In this document: positions 29,193 through 62,954 of the stretch, piece by piece | Position numbering within the stretch: the stretch's first letter is position 1 | Layout of the letters: each line of letters starts with the position of its first letter | Source of the DNA: Paludisphaera rhizosphaerae | Lineage (GTDB): Bacteria; Planctomycetota; Planctomycetia; Isosphaerales; Isosphaeraceae | Direction: 5' to 3' | Assembly (NCBI RefSeq): GCF_011065895.1 | Contig: NZ_JAALCR010000011.1 | Location: 1-64,000 of the forward strand | Length of the DNA stretch: 64,000 bases | Notes under the pieces: generated by a model | What the model saw: only the letters and a program-made list of their open reading frames with translations | Databases searched by the model: none | What the model was told of the DNA's origin: nothing | Program-made: the position numbers and the translations under genes

Positions 29193-31181
29193 TCACTCGA
29201 ACCGCAGGATCGGCTGGTCGACGGCCAGACTGTCGCCGGGGTTGGCGAGGACCTCGGCGACGACGCCGTCGTGGTCGGCCTTGAGGACGTTCCGCATCTT
29301 CATCGCCTCGACGATGGCGAGGGTCTCGCCGGCTCGGATCGCCTGGCCGGGCTCGGCGAGGAGATCCACCAGCAGGCCGGGCATCGGCGAGAGGAGGAGC
29401 TTCGACAGATCCGGCGGCGGCTTCTGGGGCATCAGGGCCAGCAGTTCGGCGGCGCGGGCGGTCATGACGAAGGCGTCGACCTGCGTCCCCCAGTGCGAGA
29501 TCCGATACCTCAGCCCCATTCGCTCAACCTGAACGCAGACCGGCACGCCGTCCCAAGTCCCCTTGAGGAGCGGCTCACCCAATCGCCAGGCGGTGCAAAG
29601 GTGATGGACCTCCCCCTTGTGGAGAACCTCGCAGCCCTCGTCATTCAGGAAGACGCCCAGCTCAAAGCGGTCCTCGGGCATGAGGACGACCCATTCGGAA
29701 TCGATGCGGCGAGCGTGCCCTTCCAACTGGCCGCTCGTCGACGTCGCCCGCTTGATGTAGCGGCGGCGGGCGTAAGCCGCGACGGCCGCCAGCAACAGCG
29801 GGTCGTCGTGGGCGAGGCTCGACGGATGGAAGCCCTCAGGATAGGTCTCAGCGATCAACGCCGTGTCGATGTCGCCGGCGAGGAACCGCGGATGCCTCGT
29901 GAGGGCCGACTGGAACGCGAGGTTCGACGCCACGCCTCGGATCAGGAAGGCGTTGAGCGCCTCGTGCATCCGGCCGACCGCTTCCTTTCGCGTCCAGCCG
30001 TGGGTGATCAGCTTGGCGATCATGGAGTCGTAGTAGATCGAGATCTCATCCCCCTCGACGACGCCCGTATCGACGCGAACGCCGCCGCGCTCCTCCTCGG
30101 GAGGCCGGTAACGGACGAGTCGTCCCGTGGCGGGGAGGAAGTTGCGGAACGGATCCTCGGCGTTGATCCGACACTCGATCGCCCAGCCGTCGCGGCGGAC
30201 CTGATCCTGGGTCATCCCCAGAGGCTTGCCGGCGGCGATCCGGATCATCTGCTCGACGAGGTCCAGGCCGGTGACCATCTCGGTGACAGGGTGCTCGACC
30301 TGGAGCCGGGTGTTCATCTCCAGGAAGTAGAAGCTGCGATCCGCGCCGACGACGAACTCGACGGTCCCCGCCGATCGGTAGCCGACGGCCTTCGCCAGCG
30401 CCACGGCTTGCGCGCCCATCGCCTGGCGAGTCGCCTCGTCGAGGAACGACGAGGGGGCTTCCTCGACGACCTTCTGATGCCGACGCTGGAGGGAACACTC
30501 GCGCTCGCCCAGGTGGACCGTCGACCCGAACGCATCGGCAAGGACCTGGATCTCGATGTGTCGAGGACGCTCGACGTACTTCTCGATGAAAACGCGGTCG
30601 TCGCCGAAAGCGCCGGCGGCCTCGGCGCGACAGGCTTCAAATCCCTCGGCGACCGAGGCGTCGTCGCGGGCGATTCGCAGTCCCTTGCCGCCGCCGCCGG
30701 CCGATGCCTTGATCATCACCGGATAGCCGATCTCGCGGGCGATCTCGACGGCCCGGCGCGCCGAGGGGATCTCGCCGTCGAAGCCAGGGACGACGTTCAC
30801 GCCGGCCTGGCGGGCAAGCCGCTTGGAGGCGATCTTGTCCCCCATCGCCGCGATGCCGTCGGCCGTCGGCCCGATGAAGACTATCCCCTCAGCGTTCAGG
30901 CGACGGACGAACGCCTCGTTCTCGGAGAGGAAGCCGTAGCCGGGGTGGACGGCCTCCGCGCCGGTCGCCTTGCAGGCGGCGACGATCCGGTCGGGATCGA
31001 GATAAGACTGCCGAGGAGGGGGCGGACCGATCGCCACGGCCTCGTCGGCCATATCCACGTGGAGCGCATCGCGGTCGGCCTCGGAGAAGACGGCCACGGT
31101 GGCAATCCCCATCCGACGGGCGGTGCGGATGATCCGGCAGGCGATCTCGCCCCGGTTCGCGATCAGGATCTTCTGGAACAT
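29193..31181 (-). CDS. pccA: Propionyl-CoA carboxylase alpha (biotin carboxylase + BCCP)
   Basis: 662 residues. Carboxylates its own biotin using ATP and bicarbonate. The biotin carboxylase part (1-450) has FQKILIANRGEIACRIIRTA, KASAGGGGKGLRI (ATP loop), EKYVERPRHIEIQVLAD and EMNTRLQVEHPVTEM. A linker (about 460-590) resembles the BT domain that docks the beta subunit, and a biotinyl domain at the end carries EAMKMRN with the target lysine. Last gene of the operon mcm-meaB-pccB-pccA (gap to pccB 30 bases). Sequence alone does not separate it from methylcrotonyl- or acetyl-CoA carboxylase alpha; the mutase and MeaB neighbours make propionyl-CoA the likely substrate. Confidence 0.9.
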   Translation of the reverse strand: MFQKILIANRGEIACRIIRTARRMGIATVAVFSEADRDALHVDMADEAVAIGPPPPRQSYLDPDRIVAACKATGAEAVHPGYGFLSENEAFVRRLNAEGIVFIGPTADGIAAMGDKIASKRLARQAGVNVVPGFDGEIPSARRAVEIAREIGYPVMIKASAGGGGKGLRIARDDASVAEGFEACRAEAAGAFGDDRVFIEKYVERPRHIEIQVLADAFGSTVHLGERECSLQRRHQKVVEEAPSSFLDEATRQAMGAQAVALAKAVGYRSAGTVEFVVGADRSFYFLEMNTRLQVEHPVTEMVTGLDLVEQMIRIAAGKPLGMTQDQVRRDGWAIECRINAEDPFRNFLPATGRLVRYRPPEEERGGVRVDTGVVEGDEISIYYDSMIAKLITHGWTRKEAVGRMHEALNAFLIRGVASNLAFQSALTRHPRFLAGDIDTALIAETYPEGFHPSSLAHDDPLLLAAVAAYARRRYIKRATSTSGQLEGHARRIDSEWVVLMPEDRFELGVFLNDEGCEVLHKGEVHHLCTAWRLGEPLLKGTWDGVPVCVQVERMGLRYRISHWGTQVDAFVMTARAAELLALMPQKPPPDLSKLLLSPMPGLLVDLLAEPGQAIRAGETLAIVEAMKMRNVLKADHDGVVAEVLANPGDSLAVDQPILRFE

Positions 31182-31211: not shown

Positions 31212-32744
31212 TCAGAGAGGGATGTTGCCGTGCTTCCGCCAGGGCCGCTCGACCTTCTTCCTCCGGAGCATCTCCAGCGAACGCGCCAACCGGCCGCGCG
31301 TCTCCTGGGGCATGATGACGTCGTCGATGAAACCGCGATGACCGGCGATGAACGGGTTGGCGAACTTCTCGCGATACTCGCGCTCGCGGGCGGCGATCTT
31401 CTCGGGATCCTTCTTCTCGTCTCGGAAGATGATCTCCACCGCGCCCTTCGGCCCCATCACGGCGATCTCCGACGAAGGCCAGGCGAAGTTGACGTCCCCC
31501 TTGAGGTGCTTCGACGACATCACGTCGTACGCCCCGCCGTAAGCCTTGCGGGTGATGACGGTGACCTTGGGAGCCGTGCACTCGGCGTAAGCGTACAGGA
31601 GCTTCGCCCCGTGCTTGATGATGCCGCCGTACTCCTGGGCCGTCCCCGGCATGAAGCCCGGGACGTCCACGAACGTCACCACGGGGATGTTGAATGCGTC
31701 GCAGAACCGGACGAACCGCGCGGCCTTGATCGAGCTCTTGATGTCCAGGCAGCCGGCCAGAACCAGCGGCTGATTCGCCACGAACCCCACGCTCCGGCCG
31801 CCGATTCGCCCGAAGCCGATCACGATGTTCCGCGCGTGGTCGGGCATCAGTTCGAAGAAGTCCCACTCGTCGACGACCTTGAGGATCAGCTCCCTGATGT
31901 CATAGGGCTTGTTCGGGTCGTCGGGAACGAGCGAATCGAGCGACGGCTCGCGACGGTCGACAGGGTCTTCGGTCGGGACGGCGGGAGGGCTCTCACGGTT
32001 GTTGGACGGGATGAACGTGAACAGCCGGCGCGTCATCATGAGCGCCTCGACGTCGTTCTCAAAGGCCAGATCGGCGACGCCCGACTTCGTCGTATGCGTC
32101 ACCGCGCCGCCCAACTCCTCGGCCGAGACCGATTCATGGGTGACCGTCTTCACGACGTCCGGGCCGGTGACGAACATGTACGACGAGTCCTTCACCATGA
32201 AGATGAAGTCGGTCATCGCCGGCGAATAAACAGCGCCCCCCGCGCAAGGCCCCATGACGAGAGAGATCTGCGGGACGACGCCCGAGGCCTCCACGTTGCG
32301 AAGGAAGACGTCCGCATAGCCCCCCAGCGAGGCGACGCCCTCCTGGATACGGGCGCCTCCCGAGTCGTTCAGCCCGATCACGGGGGCGCCGACGTCCGTG
32401 GCCTTGTCCATGATCTTGCAGATCTTCTCGGCGTGAGCCTCCGAGAGCGACCCGCCGAAGACGGTGAAGTCCTGACTGAAGACGAAGACGAGTCGGCCGT
32501 TGATGGTGCCGTAGCCGGTGACCACGCCATCGCCGGGGATCACCTGATCGGCCATGCCGAAGTCGGTGCAACGGTGGCCCTTAAACATGTCCCATTCTTC
32601 AAACGAGCCGGGATCGAGGAGCAGCTCGATGCGCTCTCGGGCCGTGAGCTTCCCCTTCGAATGCTGCGCGGCGATCCGCTTCTCGCCCCCGCCCAGACGC
32701 GCCGCGGCCCGCTTCTCGTCGAGCCGGCGGATGATCTCGTGCAT
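31212..32744 (-). CDS. pccB: Propionyl-CoA carboxylase beta (carboxyltransferase)
   Basis: 510 residues from ATG 32744 ([20 protein letters not shown]); the frame extends to 32879 but that part overlaps meaB. Crotonase-fold carboxyltransferase that moves CO2 from biotin to the acyl-CoA. Family blocks: [95 protein letters not shown], and the KHGNIPL C-terminus. Gaps of 40 bases to meaB and 30 to pccA indicate one operon. It is related to, but distinct from, the 12S subunit at 41059-42618. Confidence 0.93.
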
Positions 32745-32784
32745 GTTCCAGGCTCCGAGGAACGTTGCTTTGAAGGGGGTCGAA

Positions 32785-33816
32785 TCAGTCGCCGTCGGCT
32801 TCCACGAAATCGAGCAGACGATAGGCGGCGGCGGCGGCCGTGGTCCGGCCCTCGGCGACGGACCGACTCGTCGGCTCAAGCTCGCGACGGACGTTGGCGT
32901 TCTCGCGGAACCTCTGGCGGAGGCCCTGGTCGATCAGGCTCCACATCCAGTCGACCGATTGTCGGCGGCGTTTCTCGGTGAAGTCGCCGGACTTCGTCAG
33001 GGTTCGGCGCAACCGCTCGATCTCGTCCCAGAACTTGTCGATCCCCTGACTCTTCGCCGCGCTGAGGGCGACGACGACGGGCTTCCAGTTGGGCGACGGA
33101 TGCCGCAGCAGCGAGAGTGCACCGGCGAGTTGCCGGCGGGCCAACTCAGCAGCGTCGGGATCGATATCCGCCTTGTTGACGACGATGACGTCGGCGATCT
33201 CGACGATCCCTTTCTTGATCGCCTGAAGGTCATCGCCCGCGTTTGGAAGCTGGACGAGCACGAAGGCGTCGACCATGCCGGCGACCGTCGTCTCGGACTG
33301 GCCGACGCCGACGGTCTCGATCAGGATGACGTCAAAGCCGGCGGCCTCGCAGATCAGCATGGCCTCGCGCGTCTTGTCGGCCACGCCGCCGAGCGACCCG
33401 CGTGACGGCGAGGGCCGGATGAATGCGTCGGGGCTGACCGACAGGTGCTCCATCCGGGTCTTGTCCCCCAGGATCGAGCCGCCCGAGATGCTGCTGGAGG
33501 GATCGACCGCGAGGACGGCCACGCGACGCCCGCGCCTGATCAACGCCAGCCCGAGGGCCTCAATGAACGTCGATTTCCCCGCCCCCGGCGACCCGCTGAT
33601 GCCCAGCCGGATCGAATTCCCCGTGTGGGGCAGCAGGGCGTCGAGAACGCCCGCGGCGCGTCGACGGTGATCGGAGCGAGTGGACTCGATCAGCGTGATC
33701 GCCTTGGCCAGCGCCCGAGGTTGACGCTTCAGGACGCCGTCCACGAGAGCCTGGTCGGCCGAGTCGAGGGTCACTCGGCTCTCAGAAGTCGTTGCTGCTT
33801 CTAGATCGCTCGACAT
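32785..33816 (-). CDS. meaB: Methylmalonyl-CoA mutase GTPase chaperone MeaB
   Basis: 343 residues. G3E-family P-loop GTPase that protects B12-dependent methylmalonyl-CoA mutase and gates cofactor loading. Walker A is [19 protein letters not shown] (about 75). [33 protein letters not shown] and the Walker B stretch [12 protein letters not shown] are characteristic of MeaB/ArgK, and VVNKADID supplies the NKxD guanine motif. C-terminal helices (about 280-340) form the dimer arm. It lies 146 bases downstream of the mutase and 40 upstream of pccB. Confidence 0.96.
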
Positions 33817-33962: not shown

Positions 33963-36119
<2,157 letters not shown>

Positions 36120-36643
36120 CTGCGGACCTCTCATCCCTTTCCGAACGATAGGGGACCGCCGCGGCGTGGGAGGTTGGGCCTGAGGTCGTCGGGGCGGATC
36201 GGCCTGCCGACGGACCGGGCCGGAATCGTCGCCTGGTCCCGGAAAGCGTGCGAGCCGCCCGTCGGAAAAAGGGGCGGCGTCGGCCCAGGCCGCGAACGGG
36301 CCGGGCTCCCGGGGCCGCCGGTCGGCGATCATCCCGGGCCTTCTCAACGTGTGCCAGCATAACCGACCGTCGGCGGTCGAGCCAGCGTGAGAACCACCCG
36401 TCGCGAGTTTCACGTTTTTCACGAATTTCGAACACGACGGCCACATCGTCGCGGCCCACGCCGCGTCTCAAATCAAAACATCCTGTTCCGTCGAAGGCGA
36501 CCATCCCTTGACACGCCCTGGGAATCTGACACGATTGAGGGGGGCGCAGTCGCCTCTCGGGCGAAGGCTTCGCCCCCCCGCCGGCCATGCCCGGCACGGG
36601 GTTCCGTCAAAACAACCTCCGCGGCATCAACGGGAGTTCCGCC
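36120..36643. promoter_or_regulatory. 524-base divergent region between mutase operon and SDR
   Basis: No gene is supportable. On the plus strand there is a perfect TTGACA at 36508-36513 without a good -10. A 7-bp hairpin GGGCGAA/TTCGCCC lies at 36559-36575 and a GCCGG-type palindrome just after, both in the SDR leader. The minus-strand promoter of the mutase operon could not be fixed; TATGCT on the minus strand near 36360 is a weak candidate. Confidence 0.35.
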
Positions 36644-39533: not shown

Positions 39534-41036
39534 ATGTCACGCACGGTTGAGGTCACGGAGCTCGTCCTCCGCGACGCCCACCAGAGCTTGCTGGCCACGC
39601 GCATGACGATGGAGGACATGGTCCCCGCATGCGAGGATATCGACAAGGCCGGCTTTTGGAGCGTCGAGTGCTGGGGCGGCGCCACGTACGACTCGTGCAT
39701 TCGATTCCTGAACGAAGACCCGTGGGAGCGGCTGCGGACGTTCCGCAAGCTCCTGCCGAACTCGCGGCTCCAGATGCTGCTGCGGGGCCAGAACCTTCTT
39801 GGCTATCGCCACTACGAAGACTCGGTCGTCGACCGGTTCGTCGACAAGTCGGCCGAGAACGGCATGGACGTCTTCCGCGTCTTCGACGCGCTCAACGACC
39901 CGCGCAATCTGAAGCGGGCGATGGACGCCGTGAAGCGCACCGGCAAGTGGGCCGAGGGGACGATCTGCTACACGACGTCGCCGCTGCACACGGTTGAAAA
40001 GTTCGTCGACCTGGCCCAGCGGCTGAAGGAAATGGGCGCGTCGTCGATCTGCCTCAAAGACATGGCGGCCCTGCTGCGGCCGCAGCCGGCGTTTGACATC
40101 GTCCGGGGCATTAAGGAGAAGTGCGGCGAGGACACACTCGTCCACGTCCACGTCCATTCGACGACCGGCGTGACCATGGTCAGCCTGATGAAGGCCATCG
40201 AGGCCGGCGCGGACATCGTCGACACGGCCATCTCGTCGCTCTCGCTCGGCCCCGGGCACAACCCGACCGAGGCCCTCGTCGAGATGCTGGCCGGCACCGG
40301 CTACGAAACGAAGCTCGACAAGGACCGACTGCTCAAGATCAAGGAGCACTTCGCCAAGGTCCGCCCCCGCTACGCGGAGTTCGAGTCCAAGATCTACGGC
40401 GTCGAGACCGAGATCTTCGACAGCCAGATCCCCGGCGGCATGATCTCCAACATGGAGAGCCAACTCCGCCAGCAAGGGGCCGGCGACCGACTCAAGGAAG
40501 TGCTGGCCGAGGTCCCCAAGGTCCGCAAGGCGGCCGGCTATCCGCCGCTGGTGACGCCGTCGAGCCAGATCGTCGGCACACAGGCGGTTTTTAATGTATT
40601 GATGGGTGAATACAAGGCGCTCACCGGCGAGTTCGCCGACCTGATGCTGGGCTACTACGGCGAGACGATCGCGGAACGCGACCCGGCGGTCGTTGCGGCG
40701 GCCGAGAAGCACGCCAAGAAGTCCCCGATCACGAACCGGCCCGCCGACCTGCTCAAGCCCGAGTGGGAGACCCTCGACAAGGCCGCCAAGGCGCTGCCGG
40801 GGAACGACGGCACTCCCGAAGACACGCTGACGTACGCGATGTTCCCCCAGGTCGCCCCCAAGTTCTTCGCCAAGCGAGCCGAGGGTCCCAAGGACCCATG
40901 CAAGAGCCCGGCAGCCGCAGCCGCCAAGCCGGCGGCCGGCCCCGGCGCCGACGGCCATGCGTCGATCACAGGCCCGGTCACCTATGACGTCCACATCGGC
41001 GAAAAGACACACAAGGTGACCGTCCAACCGGCCTGA
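39534..41036 (+). CDS. Methylmalonyl-CoA:pyruvate transcarboxylase 5S subunit
   Basis: 500 residues from ATG 39534 (GAGGAG upstream). Metal-dependent TIM-barrel carboxyltransferase that moves CO2 between carboxybiotin and pyruvate/oxaloacetate. The chain follows Propionibacterium 5S almost block for block: LVLRDAHQSLLATRMTMEDM, VECWGGATYDSCIRFLNEDP, FRKLLPNSRLQMLLRGQNLL. Metal ligands known from the Propionibacterium 5S structure (Asp23, Lys184, His215, His217) correspond at a constant offset of nine to Asp14, Lys175 (LKDMAAL), His206 and His208. The C-terminus GPVTYDVHIGEKTHKVTVQP is kept, without its own biotin lysine. Pyruvate carboxylase B or oxaloacetate decarboxylase alpha would normally carry a biotinyl domain. 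Confidence 0.9.
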   Translation: MSRTVEVTELVLRDAHQSLLATRMTMEDMVPACEDIDKAGFWSVECWGGATYDSCIRFLNEDPWERLRTFRKLLPNSRLQMLLRGQNLLGYRHYEDSVVDRFVDKSAENGMDVFRVFDALNDPRNLKRAMDAVKRTGKWAEGTICYTTSPLHTVEKFVDLAQRLKEMGASSICLKDMAALLRPQPAFDIVRGIKEKCGEDTLVHVHVHSTTGVTMVSLMKAIEAGADIVDTAISSLSLGPGHNPTEALVEMLAGTGYETKLDKDRLLKIKEHFAKVRPRYAEFESKIYGVETEIFDSQIPGGMISNMESQLRQQGAGDRLKEVLAEVPKVRKAAGYPPLVTPSSQIVGTQAVFNVLMGEYKALTGEFADLMLGYYGETIAERDPAVVAAAEKHAKKSPITNRPADLLKPEWETLDKAAKALPGNDGTPEDTLTYAMFPQVAPKFFAKRAEGPKDPCKSPAAAAAKPAAGPGADGHASITGPVTYDVHIGEKTHKVTVQPA

Positions 41037-41058
41037 CCCGAGAAAGAGAGACCCGATC

Positions 41059-42618
41059 ATGAGTACGGCGCCGAAGTCGATGGAGCAGCTCGTCGACGAG
41101 CTGCGAGCCGCTCGGGCCCACCTTGCCGAAGGTGGCGGCCCGGCGCGGCTGGAAAAACAGAAGAAAGACGGCAAGCTCACCGCCCGCGAGCGCGTCAAGT
41201 CGCTGGTGGACGACGGTAGCTTCGAGGAGATCGGCCTGTTCGCCCGCCACCGCCAGACTGAGTTCGGCATGGCCGGCAAGGAAGTCCCGGCCGACGGCGT
41301 GGTCACCGGCGCGGCGTCGATCGACGGCCGGCTGGTCCACCTCGCCAGCCAGGACTTCAGCGTCCTCGGAGGCTCGGCCGGCGAGGTCCACTCGCTGAAG
41401 GTCGCCGAGGTGATGGAGATGTCGCTGCACACCGGCAGCCCGTTCGTCTTCATCAACGACTCGGGCGGCGCCCGAGTGCAGGAAGGGATCAACAGCCTCT
41501 CCGGCTACGGCAAGGTGTTCTTCACGAACGTCTCGCTGTCCGGGGCGGTGCCGCAGATCTCCCTGATCTGCGGGCCTTGCGCCGGCGGCGCGGCTTACTC
41601 GCCCGCCCTGACCGACTTCATCATCATGACCCGCAAGGCCCAGATGTTCATCACGGGGCCGCAGGTCATCAAGCAGGTGACCGGCGAGCAGATCACGGGC
41701 GACGCCCTCGGCGGGGCCGACGCCCACATGGCCAACTCCGGCGTCGTCCACTTCGTCGCCGAGAACGATGAGGAAGCCCTCTACCTCTGCCGCCGACTGC
41801 TCAGCTTCCTCCCTTCCAACAACCTGGAAGACCCGCCTCGCATCGAGGCCCAGAACAACGTCGACCCGAACCCTGAACTCAACAAGATCGTCCCGGTCGA
41901 ACCCAAGCAGGCCTACGACGTCCGCCGGGTGATCACGGCGATCGTCGACCAGGGGGACTTCCTGGAGGTTCAGGACGGCTATGCGATGAACCTCGTCGTC
42001 GGCTTCGCCCGGATCCTGGGCCGGCCGGTGGGGATCGTAGCCAACCAGCCGCAGGTGATGTCGGGAGCGCTCGACATCAACGCCTCGGACAAGGGGGCGC
42101 GGTTCATCCGGTTCTGCAACGCGTTCAACATTCCGTTGATCACGTTCGTGGACGTCCCGGGGTTCCTGCCGGGCGTTCAGCAGGAATACGGCGGGATCAT
42201 CCGCCACGGGGCCAAGATGCTCTTCGCCTACTCGGCGACGACGGTCCCCAAGATCCAGGTCATCCTCCGGAAGTCGTTCGGCGGCGCCCACCTGGCGATG
42301 TGCTCAAAGGACCTGGGGGCCGACCGCGTCTTCGCCTGGCCGACGGCCGAGGTCGCCGTGATGGGCGCCGAGGGAGCCGTCGAGATCGTCTTCCGCAAGG
42401 AGATGGATCAGGCCCCCGACAAGGCCGCCAAGCGGGCCGAGCTGATCCAGCAGTACAAGGACGCCTTCTCGACGCCGTACGTCGCCGCCGGCCGCCGGCT
42501 GGTCGACGACATCATCGAGCCGGCCGACACGCGCAAGCATCTCGCACAGGCGCTCGAGTATCTCAGCACCAAGCGCGAGCAGCGACCGCCCAAGAAGCAC
42601 GGCCTGATCCCCCTCTAA
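41059..42618 (+). CDS. mmdA: Transcarboxylase 12S subunit (methylmalonyl-CoA carboxyltransferase)
   Basis: 519 residues. Double-crotonase-fold carboxyltransferase that removes CO2 from (S)-methylmalonyl-CoA onto biotin, giving propionyl-CoA. Blocks: [120 protein letters not shown], and the PPKKHGLIPL end. GVQQEYGGIIRHGAKMLFAY is the MmdA/12S version, whereas the window's PccB has GTAQEYGG. It follows the 5S gene by 22 bases. A Na+-pumping decarboxylase is argued against by the absence of a membrane beta subunit. Confidence 0.92.
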   Translation: MSTAPKSMEQLVDELRAARAHLAEGGGPARLEKQKKDGKLTARERVKSLVDDGSFEEIGLFARHRQTEFGMAGKEVPADGVVTGAASIDGRLVHLASQDFSVLGGSAGEVHSLKVAEVMEMSLHTGSPFVFINDSGGARVQEGINSLSGYGKVFFTNVSLSGAVPQISLICGPCAGGAAYSPALTDFIIMTRKAQMFITGPQVIKQVTGEQITGDALGGADAHMANSGVVHFVAENDEEALYLCRRLLSFLPSNNLEDPPRIEAQNNVDPNPELNKIVPVEPKQAYDVRRVITAIVDQGDFLEVQDGYAMNLVVGFARILGRPVGIVANQPQVMSGALDINASDKGARFIRFCNAFNIPLITFVDVPGFLPGVQQEYGGIIRHGAKMLFAYSATTVPKIQVILRKSFGGAHLAMCSKDLGADRVFAWPTAEVAVMGAEGAVEIVFRKEMDQAPDKAAKRAELIQQYKDAFSTPYVAAGRRLVDDIIEPADTRKHLAQALEYLSTKREQRPPKKHGLIPL

Positions 42619-42639
42619 ACCGCCGGAGCGAGGCCCACG

Positions 42640-42954
42640 ATGAGTAAGGAAAAGCCCGCCCTGGCCGACGTCGTCGAACTCCTGGAGTCGCTCCGGGCCG
42701 ACGTCGCCCGCCTCGGGGAACGGGTCGCAACGCTGGAAGCCGCCCAGGCCCGCCCCGCGGCGGCTCCAGCGCCAGTCGCCGTCTCCCTGAGCGACGAAAC
42801 GCTCATGATCATCTCCGCGGCCATCGCCGCGTTCCTCGGCAAGAAAGCCCACATCCGCCAGATTCAGTTGCTCGGCTCCGACGCCTGGGCCCAGCAAGGC
42901 CGGGTCGCCATCCAGGCGTCGCACGCCCTGAGCACGGCGAGGAGCCAGCCTTGA
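42640..42954 (+). CDS. Small coiled-coil protein with OadG/MmdD-like C-terminus
   Basis: 104 residues. Residues 5-36 predict a short coiled coil (LADVVELLESLRADVARLGE). An Ala/Pro linker (about 37-48) is followed by a compact segment, SDETLMIISAAIAAFLGKKA, then HIRQIQLL and WAQQGRVAIQASH. The last part resembles the C-terminal region of gamma/delta subunits of Na+-pumping decarboxylases, which dock biotin carrier and catalytic subunits, but there is no transmembrane helix. Position between the 12S and 1.3S genes, with a four-base overlap to the latter, suggests a structural subunit of the complex. This role is inference. Confidence 0.6.
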   Translation: MSKEKPALADVVELLESLRADVARLGERVATLEAAQARPAAAPAPVAVSLSDETLMIISAAIAAFLGKKAHIRQIQLLGSDAWAQQGRVAIQASHALSTARSQP

Positions 42955-43337
42955 AACTCAAGATCACCGTGGACGGCAAACTGTATGAGGTGGACGTCGA
43001 GGTCTCGGAGCCGGAGCGGGCCAAGCCCGGCTTCGTCGCGCCGATCGGCCAGGTCCGCGTCCCAGCCGCCCCCGTCGCACCAACGGCGTCGCCGTCGGCC
43101 GCCGTCGAGAAGGTCGCCGATGAATCCAAGGTCTGCCGCAGCCCGTTCGCCGGGACCGTCTCCCGCGTCGAGGCCCAGGTCGGCCAGAAAATCGAACCGA
43201 ACGGGGTCCTCGTCGTCATCGAAGCGATGAAGATGGAAACCTCGATCACCGCCCCCGCCGCCGGCAAGATCGCCAAGATCAACGTCGCCGCCGGCGACGC
43301 CGTGAAGCAGGGGCAGGTTCTCGTCGAATTTGAATGA
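42951..43337 (+). CDS. Transcarboxylase 1.3S biotin carrier subunit
   Basis: 128 residues, TTG start at 42951 within TTGA, overlapping the previous stop, with GGCGAGGAG upstream. The N-terminus MKLKITVDGKLYEVDVEV matches the 1.3S tail that binds the core subunits. An Ala/Pro/Val-rich linker (about 28-55) leads to a biotinyl domain with PFAGTVSRVEAQVG and EAMKMETSI; the lysine is the biotin site. It swings CO2 between 12S and 5S. A biotin ligase (BirA) is needed but not seen here. A strong hairpin follows the stop. Confidence 0.92.
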   Translation: MKLKITVDGKLYEVDVEVSEPERAKPGFVAPIGQVRVPAAPVAPTASPSAAVEKVADESKVCRSPFAGTVSRVEAQVGQKIEPNGVLVVIEAMKMETSITAPAAGKIAKINVAAGDAVKQGQVLVEFE

Positions 43338-43341
43338 CCCT

Positions 43342-43374
43342 CCGTCGCGACGCGCCCCCGGCGCGTCGCGACGG
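43342..43374 (+). terminator. Very strong hairpin between 1.3S gene and mce
   Basis: A perfect 15-bp GC-rich stem (43342-43356 with 43360-43374) around a CCC loop, followed by CTTTCC, begins four bases after the 1.3S stop and ends 36 bases before the epimerase start. It could end most transcripts or stabilise the upstream mRNA, making mce expression lower than that of the transcarboxylase. Confidence 0.7.
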
Positions 43375-43410
43375 CTTTCCGCGCAAGCGAAAAATAAGAA
43401 GGAGACAGAC

Positions 43411-43836
43411 ATGGCCGCCGCCGACGTCAAGGCCGTCAACCACATCGGCATCGCCGTCCGGTCGATCGAGGCCCAGAAGGAATACTACACCGAGGTGCTC
43501 GGCGCTCTCTTCGAGGGAGAGGAAGTCGTCGCCGACCAAAAGGTGAAGGTCGGCTTCTTCCGCGTCGGCCCGGTTCGCTTTGAACTTCTCGAGCCGACCG
43601 ATCCGACCAGCACGGTCGCGACGTTCATCGAGAAAAAGGGCGAAGGACTGCACCACGTCGCGCTTGAGGTCGACGACATCAACGCCCGGATCGCCGACGT
43701 CAAGGCGAAGGGGCTGCGGATGATTGACGAGAAGGCTCGGCCGGGCTCGCATCACCTGCAAATCGCCTTCGTCCACCCCAAGAGCACCTTCGGGGTTCTG
43801 ACCGAGCTTTGCGAAGTCTCGAAGGACGCTCACTGA
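43411..43836 (+). CDS. mce: Methylmalonyl-CoA epimerase
   Basis: 141 residues from ATG 43411 (AAGGAG eight bases upstream). VOC-superfamily metalloenzyme interconverting (R)- and (S)-methylmalonyl-CoA, linking the mutase product to the 12S/PCC isomer. Two beta-alpha-beta-beta-beta modules: VNHIGIAVRSIEAQKEYYTE, LLEPTDPTSTVATFIEKKGE, GLHHVALEVDDI and FGVLTELCE give the metal ligands (two His, one Glu) and the flexible substrate loop. Length is typical. It sits between two strong hairpins, after the transcarboxylase and before sdhC. Confidence 0.95.
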   Translation: MAAADVKAVNHIGIAVRSIEAQKEYYTEVLGALFEGEEVVADQKVKVGFFRVGPVRFELLEPTDPTSTVATFIEKKGEGLHHVALEVDDINARIADVKAKGLRMIDEKARPGSHHLQIAFVHPKSTFGVLTELCEVSKDAH

Positions 43837-43865: not shown

Positions 43866-44015
43866 TTCTCGCCCGAGCGGTTTCGCTCGCATAGAATGGG
43901 ATGGAAATATGGCGCGGAGGAGGCACCCGGCCTTCCCCGCGCCCGCTTCGGTTTCCGGACCTAGGCCGCGCCACTGCGGCCGACCGGTCCCCTCCTTGTG
44001 CTACAGGAAACTGAC

Positions 44016-44717
44016 ATGAGCGCGGTCGCGACGAGTCCCGCCGCCGGGCGGAGACCGGCCCCCCGCAATCGAGTCCAGAGGTTTCTGACCTCCTCGATCG
44101 GGCTGAAGCTGGTCATGGCCTTTTCCGGCGTCTTGCTCTCCTTGTTCGTGCTGGGCCATATGCTCGGCAACCTCCAGGCCTATCAGGGCGCGGAGGCGCT
44201 TGACGACTACGGCCGGCTGCTTCGCAAGGAACCCGCGCTGCTGTGGACAGTCCGATTCGGACTGCTGGGCACGATTGCACTGCACATCTACGCCTACATC
44301 GCGCTCTTGAAGCGGAACGGCGCGGCTCGCCCCAAGGGCTACCGGATGCGCAAATGGCGGGAGTCCAGCTACGCCTCGCGGTCGATGAAGATCACCGGTC
44401 CGCTGCTGCTGGCCTTCATCATCTTCCACATCCTCCACCTGACGACCGGCACGGTCCACCCGCACTTTGAGGAAGGGAAGGTCTATCACAACGTGGTGAC
44501 GGGCCTGACAGGCGTCTACGGCCTGATTTACGTCCTGGCCATGGCGATGCTGGCGTTCCACCTCTGGCACGGCGTCTGGAGCATGATGCTGACGCTGGGC
44601 CTGCCCGAAGGCCGCTACGGCTCGGTCGGGCGAGCCGCCGCCACCATCTTCACCGCGCTGGTGACGGTGGGTTTCGCGACCGTCCCCCTGGCCGTGATGG
44701 CCGGCCTTCTCAAGTGA
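44016..44717 (+). CDS. sdhC: Succinate dehydrogenase/fumarate reductase cytochrome b558 subunit
   Basis: 233 residues from ATG 44016 (AGGAAA upstream); GTG 43998 is less likely. Five transmembrane helices, with likely haem histidines in FVLGHMLGN, ALHIYAY, IIFHILHLTTG and AFHLWHGVWSM. This is the single-anchor, di-haem B-type arrangement of Bacillus Sdh and Wolinella Frd, with no separate SdhD. Enzymes of this type can work as succinate:menaquinone oxidoreductase or fumarate reductase. sdhA follows after 12 bases. Confidence 0.93.
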   Translation: MSAVATSPAAGRRPAPRNRVQRFLTSSIGLKLVMAFSGVLLSLFVLGHMLGNLQAYQGAEALDDYGRLLRKEPALLWTVRFGLLGTIALHIYAYIALLKRNGAARPKGYRMRKWRESSYASRSMKITGPLLLAFIIFHILHLTTGTVHPHFEEGKVYHNVVTGLTGVYGLIYVLAMAMLAFHLWHGVWSMMLTLGLPEGRYGSVGRAAATIFTALVTVGFATVPLAVMAGLLK

Positions 44718-44729
44718 TCGGAGCCTTCC

Positions 44730-46646
<1,917 letters not shown>

Positions 46647-46706: not shown

Positions 46707-47516
46707 ATGGCCGGACAAGGTGAAGAGAAGCTCCTGAACCTGACCCTGCACGTCTGGAGACAGAAGAATCGGTCGGCTGAAGGCGAGTTCGTAACCTACC
46801 GCGAGGAAGCCCGCGGCATCAGCACTGACATGTCGTTCCTGGAGATGCTCGACGTCGTCAACGAACGGCTCATCAAGTCGGGCAAGGAGCCGATCGCCTT
46901 CGACCACGACTGTCGCGAGGGGATCTGCGGCCAGTGCGGCGTGGTCATCAACGGCAGCCCCCACGGGCCCCGCCGCGCGACGACGTCGTGCCAGCTCCAC
47001 ATGCGGAGCTTCCAGGACGGCGCCGAGCTGACCATCGAGCCCTGGCGGGCGGCGGCCTTCCCCGTGGTCAAGGACCTCGTGGTCGACCGCGGCGCATTCG
47101 ACCGGATCATCGCGTCCGGAGGGTTCATCTCCGTCCGCACCGGCAACGCCCCCGAGGCCAACGGCCTCCCCGTGCCGAAGCAGGATTCCGACCTGGCCAT
47201 GGACGCCGCCGCCTGCATCGGCTGCGGCGCCTGCGTGGCCGCCTGCCCGAACGCCTCGGCCATGCTGTTCGTCGCCGCCAAGGCGGAGCATCTCAACCTG
47301 CTCCCCCAGGGCGCTCCGGAGAAGGACAACCGAGTCCTGGCGATGGTCGACCAGGCCGACGCCGAGGGCTTCGGCAACTGCACCAACCACGGCGAATGCG
47401 AGGCCGTCTGTCCCAAGGAGATCAGCATGGGCTTCATCGCCCGGCTGAACGGGGACTACCGCCGCGCCAGCCTGAAGCGTCCCCGAGCCGCCGCTCCCGC
47501 CGGCGGCGCCGGCTGA
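46707..47516 (+). CDS. sdhB: Succinate dehydrogenase/fumarate reductase iron-sulfur protein
   Basis: 269 residues, GAGAGGAT upstream. Passes electrons from SdhA FAD to the membrane haems. The [2Fe-2S] ligands lie in [10 protein letters not shown] plus a later TTSC (about 70-95), the [4Fe-4S] in [13 protein letters not shown] (about 172-184) and the [3Fe-4S] in [15 protein letters not shown] (about 228-242). The C-terminal tail is basic and Ala-rich. Last gene of sdhCAB; a 9-bp hairpin follows. Confidence 0.96.
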
Positions 47517-62625: not shown

Positions 62626-62685
62626 TCACAGGGAAGGCTCTTCCAGATCTTGCTGGGCGAGTGGCATGCGAGTGCCCGTCGCCAT
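62626..62685 (-). pseudogene. Truncated ParE toxin (19 codons)
   Basis: The frame starts at ATG 62685, overlapping the parD stop in ATGA as in intact parDE operons. It reads MATGTRMPLAQQDLEEPSL and then stops. LAQQDLEE is the first helix of ParE toxins; everything after it is gone and replaced by the higBA upstream sequence. The toxin is therefore lost. Confidence 0.7.
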
Positions 62686-62954
62686 CAGGCCCCCTTGCAA
62701 CCGTTCCTTCGGCGGCTCCGGACCTTGGCGAGCGTCCCCGTGACGTCGAGGGCGGCGACCTCGCCCCGGTCTGCCTGGTCGATGCCGAGCTGGATTTCCT
62801 TGCGGATCTCCTCGCACTTTATCGCTTGAGGCTTGTCCCGCTCCTCAAGCAGGCGCAAGGCTTCGCGAACCACCTCGCTCGCCGAAAGGTAAAGTCCGGA
62901 CTCAACCTTCCGGTGGACGAGTTGCTCGAGTTCGGGAGTGAGCGACACGTACAT
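62685..62954 (-). CDS. parD: ParD-type antitoxin (orphan)
   Basis: 89 residues. Ribbon-helix-helix N-terminus (MYVSLTPELEQLVHRKVESG, LYLSASEVVREALRLLEERD), then the toxin-binding tail with IQLGIDQADRGEVAALDV, characteristic of ParD partners of ParE. The C-terminal end is slightly unusual (RSRRRNGCKGA). The paired toxin is only a stub, so ParD may persist as a repressor or protect against another ParE in the cell. Confidence 0.88.
   Translation of the reverse strand: MYVSLTPELEQLVHRKVESGLYLSASEVVREALRLLEERDKPQAIKCEEIRKEIQLGIDQADRGEVAALDVTGTLAKVRSRRRNGCKGA

Follow-up and report, generated by a model that had tools for sequence, protein, structure and literature searches.

Which enzyme does a five-gene operon of the planctomycete Paludisphaera rhizosphaerae encode, what does the small gene inside it contribute, and in which direction would the enzyme run? 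The operon occupies positions 39534-43836 of the stretch of DNA that we analyzed (contig NZ_JAALCR010000011.1, positions 1 to 64,000; 64,000 nucleotides, hereafter the window), which comes from a genome of 8.05 Mb with an estimated completeness of 99.99%. The original prediction, made from the letters alone, had named it a complete "Propionibacterium-type" transcarboxylase operon. All five genes were found in the order, place, and strand that it gave: 5S, 12S, a small protein, a 1.3S biotin carrier, and the epimerase are tightly spaced on the plus strand, with intergenic gaps of 22, 21, -4, and 73 bases (the last counted to the epimerase ATG). Judged by family membership, the operon almost certainly encodes methylmalonyl-coenzyme A (CoA):pyruvate transcarboxylase (EC 2.1.3.1), an enzyme of ordinary chemistry and of a known family that is most familiar from cheese bacteria. 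In it, 12S would move the carboxyl group from (S)-methylmalonyl-CoA to the biotin of 1.3S, and 5S would hand it to pyruvate, yielding propionyl-CoA and oxaloacetate without ATP. For the small protein, we propose from comparisons of its relatives that it is an overlooked fourth, scaffold subunit. The reading that combines transcarboxylase, scaffold, and a direction leaning to propionate formation is, as a whole, the best explanation, with a probability of about 0.72.

The 5S protein was compared with profile models and known structures. It matched the transcarboxylase 5S model NF008984 with 944.3 bits (cut-off, 827; E=1.5e-284). Models for OadA and PycB reached at most 655.5 bits and stayed under their cut-offs, except for the broad domain model PRK09282 (653.8 versus 402). 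When the PDB was searched, transcarboxylase 5S entries scored 785.8-783.9 bits and the best other protein 494.8. Residues 4-501 (with one extra codon before the ATG) aligned to residues 23-516 of 1rqb; since the alignment reaches 516, the C terminus is retained, as had been claimed. Asp14, Lys175, His206, and His208 are also present, and their offset from the ligand numbers that we assume for Propionibacterium 5S is constant, as predicted, because the 1rqb alignment is ungapped over that stretch. The same metal ligands occur in OadA and pyruvate carboxylase (PYC). They thus do not single out 5S and were set aside as proof; the profile scores and the tree do single it out.

In the 5S tree (85 of 162 sequences), the window protein falls into a set of 62 transcarboxylase-type rows that includes Propionibacteriaceae (100/95). 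Just outside this set stand proteins of the planctomycete family f14; PYC and the remaining OadA/PycB-like rows are more distant. The phylogeny called for by the original prediction therefore places 5S outside OadA/PycB, with f14 OadA proteins as the nearest outsiders. Twenty planctomycete transcarboxylase rows form one set (100/98), comprising nine from outside the Isosphaeraceae, ten from within this family, and the window. The 12S tree, built from 55 chosen rows of which six are shorter than 450 residues, agrees: 14 planctomycete rows stand together (100/100) and PccB stands apart, as does the window's own PccB-like protein. In both trees, the root and the deep order hinge on long-branched outgroups. 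By this evidence, planctomycete 5S is a set of its own and no recent import from Actinomycetota. "Propionibacterium-type" is thus apt as a family name and not as a statement of lineage.

The NF008984 cut-off was rejected as sole proof of a transcarboxylase. It was exceeded in 5 of 392 genomes of the phylum, with up to three candidates scored per genome; among the four genomes other than that of the window, three have an adjacent OadB gene (G144, G079, and G040) and one has OadB elsewhere (G288). The three with adjacent OadB belong to f14 (loci L161, L162, and L163) and their 5S-like proteins score 842-915 bits. In L161 and L163, a gamma-like gene is present and a biotin domain is fused to the 5S-type protein. 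The model name alone would mislabel these f14 OadA proteins as transcarboxylase 5S.

The best PDB match of the 12S protein was transcarboxylase 12S, 1on3 (747.8 bits; E=4e-224), followed by a propionyl-CoA carboxylase (PCC) beta chain with 644.8 bits. For both 5S and 12S, scores of this size exclude a chance match. The mmdA model has a cut-off of 998.8 bits, under which both 12S (763.2) and the window's PccB-like protein (791.4) remained. The 1.3S gene starts with TTG and overlaps the small-protein stop by 4 bases. Its EAMKM site, read from the sequence, predicts biotinylation at Lys94, 34 residues before the end, and it matched the MmdC model weakly (49.1 versus 200 bits). Taken with the profile score of 5S, its nearest PDB structures, and both trees, these results bear out the claim of a transcarboxylase operon.

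A sodium-pumping methylmalonyl-CoA or oxaloacetate decarboxylase is built from related parts. The window 12S is MmdA-like and 67% identical to MmdA of G403, a genome of the same family whose MmdA is among the deepest lines on the 12S side of the tree, and the f14 relatives of 5S that exceed the 5S cut-off lie in OadG-OadA-OadB operons. However, the oxaloacetate decarboxylase (OAD) beta subunit (PF03977) had no match in the source genome, in line with the check that the original prediction had suggested, and tblastn found it in none of 94 transcarboxylase loci, a count in which five places appear twice. A sodium pump is disfavored because the genome lacks an OAD-type beta match, and an unrecognized beta subunit would be required. 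In addition, a fused biotin domain such as that of L161 and L163 is absent from the window 5S, and the small protein has no membrane-like stretch. We consider this explanation extremely improbable. It is also very unlikely that 12S or 5S forms an ATP-dependent carboxylase together with one of the biotin carboxylases (PccA-like or AccC-size). A PccA-like gene does lie about 8 kb away, but it has its own PccB-like neighbor. The operon contains no biotin carboxylase gene; the genome has three, namely one PccA-like, one fused PYC, and one assigned to AccC by size alone. Tautonia-type genomes, which have just two (AccC and PYC size), retain the operon.

We then turned to the small protein. Among named genomes, a scan confirmed 445 relatives, and loci were taken from the best 80. 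Besides Planctomycetota, these span at least four phyla, namely Acidobacteriota, Pseudomonadota, Armatimonadota, and Actinomycetota, with a few others (labels of metagenome-assembled genomes may be wrong). By this sample, the transcarboxylase is a broad family in which Propionibacteriaceae are one branch. The small protein is encoded in all 66 loci in which both 12S and 1.3S were found; the other 14 of the 80 were left out of this count, and in 13 of these 5S lies no more than about 3.1 kb from a contig end. Its gene lies between 12S and 1.3S in 61 loci and between 5S and 12S in five loci of Armatimonadota. One further locus of this phylum, L104, has 5S and a weak match to the small protein; neither 12S nor 1.3S was found there in 21 kb.

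In the P. freudenreichii enzyme, described with three subunits, the corresponding open reading frame (ORF) was interpreted as encoding the C-terminal portion of 12S, according to an excerpt of PMC2909200. Gene position suggests that this ORF is the small protein, and the Propionibacteriaceae loci sampled carry a separate small gene. In line with that description, the small protein might be a mere detached end of 12S that has no separate function. However, the PDB 12S chain of 523 residues already spans the window 12S of 519 amino acids (aa), with a near end-to-end alignment (7-518 to 11-522), and the small protein matches MmdD/OadG. It is a gene of its own, because it is separate in 66 of 66 loci, including those of Armatimonadota in which it precedes 12S. 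We thus regard a detached 12S part as unlikely.

The small protein has a coiled-coil-like helical N terminus, followed by a linker that varies and by a conserved end, whose consensus is EE.L..ISAAVAAYLGKRA.IRQ.RL..S.AWAQQGRV.IQASH. AlphaFold2 (AF2) predicted helices at residues 8-37, 52-65, and 81-94, the last at low confidence, with a predicted local distance difference test score (pLDDT) of 96-97 over residues 11-30. A profile was built from 71 distinct sequences (L079, L111, and duplicates left out). Searched against the PDB, it found mostly coiled coils, with no carboxylase subunit among the best 60 of 149 matches. When searched against the loci in hand, it matched OadG/MmdD-like proteins near OadB: L194 (E 6.9e-12), L167 (E 1.5e-4), and four more at E 0.014-0.13. 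All six exceed the Pfam cut-off for OAD_gamma, and the common segment lies behind the Pfam domain. The profile also matched L021 (E 0.018) and L024 (E 0.043), ORFs that lie between a carboxyltransferase and a 5S-type gene and not beside OadB. Profile-profile alignment (hhalign) of the small protein with the OadG/MmdD-like proteins gave 97.7% and E 1.8e-12, a value for a single comparison with six proteins picked by an initial match; the controls gave 0.7% (1.3S), 0.6% (epimerase), and at most 0.3% (20 column shuffles). Plain OAD gamma was matched directly only weakly (24.3%, E 8e-4), and the MmdD-like proteins form the bridge (97.5%).

Family searches used set A1, 58 of the 82 loci matched at E<1e-5 (one of the 82 being the L194 gamma subunit). 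In Pfam, OAD_gamma was the domain matched by most members, weakly (25/58 at E<=0.1, best 4e-4). In NCBIfam, seven models were matched at E<=0.01, all weakly, headed by MmdE (5/58) and including oadG (2/58) and MmdD (1/58). DUF1484 was not adopted: the small protein scored 21.3 versus 21.2 bits, yet only 4 of 58 members matched at E<=0.1. The window protein has no membrane-like stretch, and just one of the 66 small proteins exceeded a Kyte-Doolittle value of 1.6 (L069, 12614-13063, Acidobacteriota), with the stretch at its N terminus. A second protein of Acidobacteriota (L084, 10371-10823) has such a stretch only if the longer start is taken. Both loci are on a deep branch and might fit an intermediate form.

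The end of the small protein led to a motif, W..GR..SH, whose distribution was examined in 64 OadB loci (60 fetched, plus L161, L162, L163, and L167). A transmembrane protein with this tail was found in 12 of 20 operons with only a 12S-type carboxyltransferase, in none of 30 with only a 5S-type (the OAD-type operons), and in 3 of 14 with neither in view; L249 has the motif but fails the end-distance rule and was counted as without. Six of the 12 proteins are those in which the motif was first noticed. After removal of these six and of three loci viewed by eye, the difference remained (6/14 versus 0/27, p=0.0007). A candidate gamma, defined as the most hydrophobic small ORF nearby, was present in 27 of the 30 5S-type operons and mostly ended soon after the short helix. 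Thus, the tail accompanies the 12S-type enzyme. In addition, the 5S C terminus resembles the 1.3S N terminus (68%, E 5e-5), and these two regions are possible docking places for the short helix.

Precedents come from the membrane pumps. The cytoplasmic tail of OAD gamma binds the association domain of alpha (excerpt of PMC7274780), and its removal uncouples alpha from beta-gamma (excerpts of PMC7274780 and PMC2881705). In Veillonella, the delta subunit is reported to be indispensable for complex formation (excerpt of PMC11575231). Together with the pairing of tail and 12S, these precedents suggest a clamp. The small protein would be soluble and related to the delta/gamma scaffold of sodium pumps, with the tail holding 12S and the short helix or coiled coil holding the 5S/1.3S side; we think this model probable, with less assurance than the enzyme assignment. 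Several results speak against it. The AF2 model of the C-terminal segment has low confidence (pLDDT of about 51-54 past residue 70; predicted template modeling score of 0.34). The window protein scored 15.9 bits on PF04277 (OAD_gamma; cut-off, 27) and had no NCBIfam match at E<=0.01, and the matches of its family to OAD gamma, MmdD, and MmdE are weak. By the rule used, 8 of the 20 12S-type OadB operons lack the tail motif. The three-subunit description of the P. freudenreichii enzyme also counts here.

The window operon shares its three catalytic parts with the transcarboxylase of P. freudenreichii (5S, 1rqb; 12S, 1on3; 1.3S), whose operon likewise has four coding sequences (excerpt of PMC2909200). 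Propionibacteriaceae loci have the order 5S-12S-small-1.3S, as in the window, and the window 5S is 71-73% identical to that of the seven such loci in hand. Unlike the P. freudenreichii entry, the window operon has mutase, MeaB, PCC-like, epimerase, and SdhCAB genes as neighbors. Compared with the sodium-pumping methylmalonyl-CoA decarboxylase (MmdA-D-C-B and MmdE), it lacks beta and the membrane helix on the small protein, and 5S is added. The C-terminal part of the small protein resembles MmdD-like subunits and, weakly, MmdE. OadA-OadB-OadG also contains a 5S-type carboxyltransferase, and its gamma has a weakly similar short helix. The biotin domain of OAD sits on OadA (excerpt of PMC7274780), unlike in the window 5S.

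The features of the operon and its surroundings are listed in Table 1.

Table 1. Genes of the transcarboxylase operon and of its metabolic neighborhood (window positions)
Feature	Position	Strand	Size, score, or basis
5S: pyruvate/oxaloacetate-side carboxyltransferase, without fused biotin domain	39534..41036	+	500 aa; NF008984, PDB matches, tree
12S: methylmalonyl-CoA/propionyl-CoA-side carboxyltransferase	41059..42618	+	519 aa; PF01039, 1on3 best PDB match, tree
Small protein: N-terminal coiled-coil helix, linker, MmdD/OadG-like C-terminal segment; proposed scaffold subunit	42640..42954	+	104 aa
1.3S biotin carboxyl carrier, EAMKM	42951..43337	+	128 aa; PF00364; biotin Lys94 (predicted)
Methylmalonyl-CoA epimerase	43411..43836 (likely ATG 43411)	+	TIGR03081 146.4 bits versus cut-off 114.95
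SdhC/FrdC cytochrome b558-type membrane subunit	43998..44717	+	TIGR02046 159.7 versus 96
SdhA/FrdA flavoprotein	44730..46646	+	NF005749 1182 versus 866
SdhB/FrdB iron-sulfur subunit	46707..47516	+	NF005746 419.7 versus 243
Methylmalonyl-CoA mutase	33963..36446	-	NF006944 1280.6 versus 876; longest ORF, homology from about residue 121
MeaB, mutase-associated GTPase	32785..33816	-	NF006958 482 versus 329
PccB-like acyl-CoA carboxylase beta	31212..32879	-	PF01039 680.7 bits; longest ORF, homology from about residue 49
PccA-like biotin carboxylase subunit	29193..31181	-	662 aa; NF006367 637.4 versus 597; PF02785

Mutase, MeaB, PccB-like, and PccA-like genes form a divergent block on the minus strand, from 36446 down to 29193; genes for a short-chain dehydrogenase/reductase, a GlpX fructose bisphosphatase, and a thioesterase separate it from the operon. 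The neighboring genes suggest propionyl-CoA as the substrate of the PccA-like and PccB-like proteins, and this ATP-dependent enzyme would serve propionyl-CoA assimilation in air. Epimerase, mutase-MeaB, and SdhCAB would connect the transcarboxylase to succinyl-CoA and to succinate/fumarate. In the genome, a fused PYC was detected (1739.6 versus 965 bits), and contig C4, another contig than that of the operon, carries the only CoA transferase with PF02550. The original prediction did not contain the PCC-like/MeaB/mutase module, SdhCAB, the fused PYC, the CoA transferase, or the identity of the small protein. In the window, a short ORF also lies on the minus strand (62685-62954), and its start presumably resembles a ParD/CopG-type antitoxin.

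The gene set of the Wood-Werkman cycle (mutase, epimerase, transcarboxylase, and succinate/fumarate enzyme genes) is present, and as far as genes can tell, it permits both directions. Further evidence came from the family, in which 13 of 45 genomes exceeded the 5S cut-off and a further one, G397, carries 5S split across two contigs. The mutase is present in all 14 of these genomes and in 11 of the 31 others (p=3.9e-5, relatedness ignored); counted by genus, the association was not significant (4/4 versus 7/17, p=0.09). A third biotin carboxylase is present in Paludisphaera-type (g1) and Aquisphaera-type (g268) genomes, each of which also has a carboxyltransferase in the PccB-like score class. 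In contrast, three carboxyltransferase matches (12S, AccA kind, and AccD kind) and two biotin carboxylases (AccC and PYC size) were found in the Tautonia-type genomes G429, G431, and G432; G430 and G397 have one extra carboxyltransferase, which falls into a different score class (449 and 458 bits), and still two biotin carboxylases. Completeness is 94-99% for the Tautonia-type genomes of this contrast and 85% for G397. Four Tautonia-type genomes lack the PCC-like pair and have a CoA transferase (PF02550) within the cluster, in the order CoA transferase, mutase pair, MeaB, 5S, 12S, small protein, 1.3S, and epimerase. There, the transcarboxylase is the sole enzyme that we could see between propionyl-CoA and methylmalonyl-CoA.

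In G403, no 5S exceeded the cut-off. Its equivalent cluster (L167, 4379-16186) encodes a sodium-pump MmdA-MmdD-MmdC-MmdB together with the epimerase, the mutase pair, MeaB, and a CoA transferase like that of the Tautonia-type clusters. This methylmalonyl-CoA decarboxylase cluster is apparently an alternative to the transcarboxylase in the same family. Sodium-pump decarboxylases of the G403 type are known for propionate formation. Because G403, a single genome, has the pump in the equivalent cluster, the direction leans to propionate formation. We hold this tentatively: that the reversible enzyme forms propionate as a low-oxygen electron sink has a little less than an even chance. CoA transferases with PF02550 were found in all 15 genomes tested, and the three that were scanned, including those of the source genome and G432, all exceeded the cut-off of TIGR03458 (succinate CoA transferase; 706.6 on contig C4 and 707.8 in G432, versus 658.7).

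The same enzyme may instead run only in the consuming direction, with oxaloacetate carboxylating propionyl-CoA and sparing the ATP of PCC during aerobic breakdown of branched-chain amino acids or odd-chain fatty acids. PCC-like, MeaB, and mutase genes adjoin the operon, and the fused PYC could supply oxaloacetate. Three COX1/heme-copper oxidase matches in the genome (512, 491, and 214 bits) also make a fermentative role less than obvious. The CoA transferase may serve acetate: it lies off the operon and also exceeds the cut-off of the succinyl-CoA:acetate model (588.2 versus 500; G432, 580.5), so its partner need not be propionyl-CoA. Moreover, the syntroph Pelotomaculum thermopropionicum uses its transcarboxylase in the consuming direction, for propionate oxidation; its mmc cluster has transcarboxylase, epimerase, and mutase genes together, as here, and adds enzymes such as Por (excerpt of PMC6046458). 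Against a purely consuming role stand the G403 pump and the CoA transferase, which is inside the cluster in four Tautonia-type genomes. We regard propionyl-CoA consumption as a serious contender, below even odds and slightly less likely than propionate formation. The oxidase matches, the second score of the CoA transferase, and the Pelotomaculum precedent weigh against the latter.

A different arrangement was seen in other planctomycete families (f17, f30, f37, f54, f65, f86, and f92), in which an acyl-CoA carboxyltransferase gene adjoins a 5S-type gene (L016, L018-L025, and L036). Lengths suggest a fused biotin domain on several of the 5S-type proteins, several loci have a small ORF between the two genes (for example, L036 and L024), and L019 and L024 have a mutase match alongside. 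Several of these genomes have OadB elsewhere. This type is perhaps a second transcarboxylase architecture.

A fuller scenario is more speculative, and we would not bet on it. The transcarboxylase would have four kinds of subunit and would have arisen from an MmdA/OadA-type membrane pump that lost beta and turned into a soluble carboxyl exchanger before the five sampled phyla acquired it. In the small protein, a coiled coil would have taken over from the membrane anchor; the short helix would still dock the pyruvate-side enzyme and the W..GR..SH tail the acyl-CoA-side enzyme, clamping 5S and 12S together. Paludisphaera and Tautonia would use the enzyme as a low-oxygen electron sink. In the open-licence literature that was searched, we found no paper on a planctomycete transcarboxylase; the nearest match assigns one to genome "DE", a Desulfobacterota bin (excerpt of PMC11212195).

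Two points may interest specialists: the resemblance of the small protein to a scaffold, and a single family whose genomes swap among transcarboxylase, PCC-like enzyme, and sodium pump. That family offers a contrast of genomes with both enzymes (Paludisphaera- and Aquisphaera-type), with the transcarboxylase and no PCC pair (Tautonia-type), and with a sodium pump (G403). The transcarboxylase complex has been studied for decades; if the proposed role of the small protein is true, its textbook description would be short of one subunit, and it would become possible to read the transition between sodium pumps of the membrane and soluble transcarboxylases. Planctomycetes, mostly viewed as aerobic polymer degraders, would gain a route for making or using propionate that can be tested.

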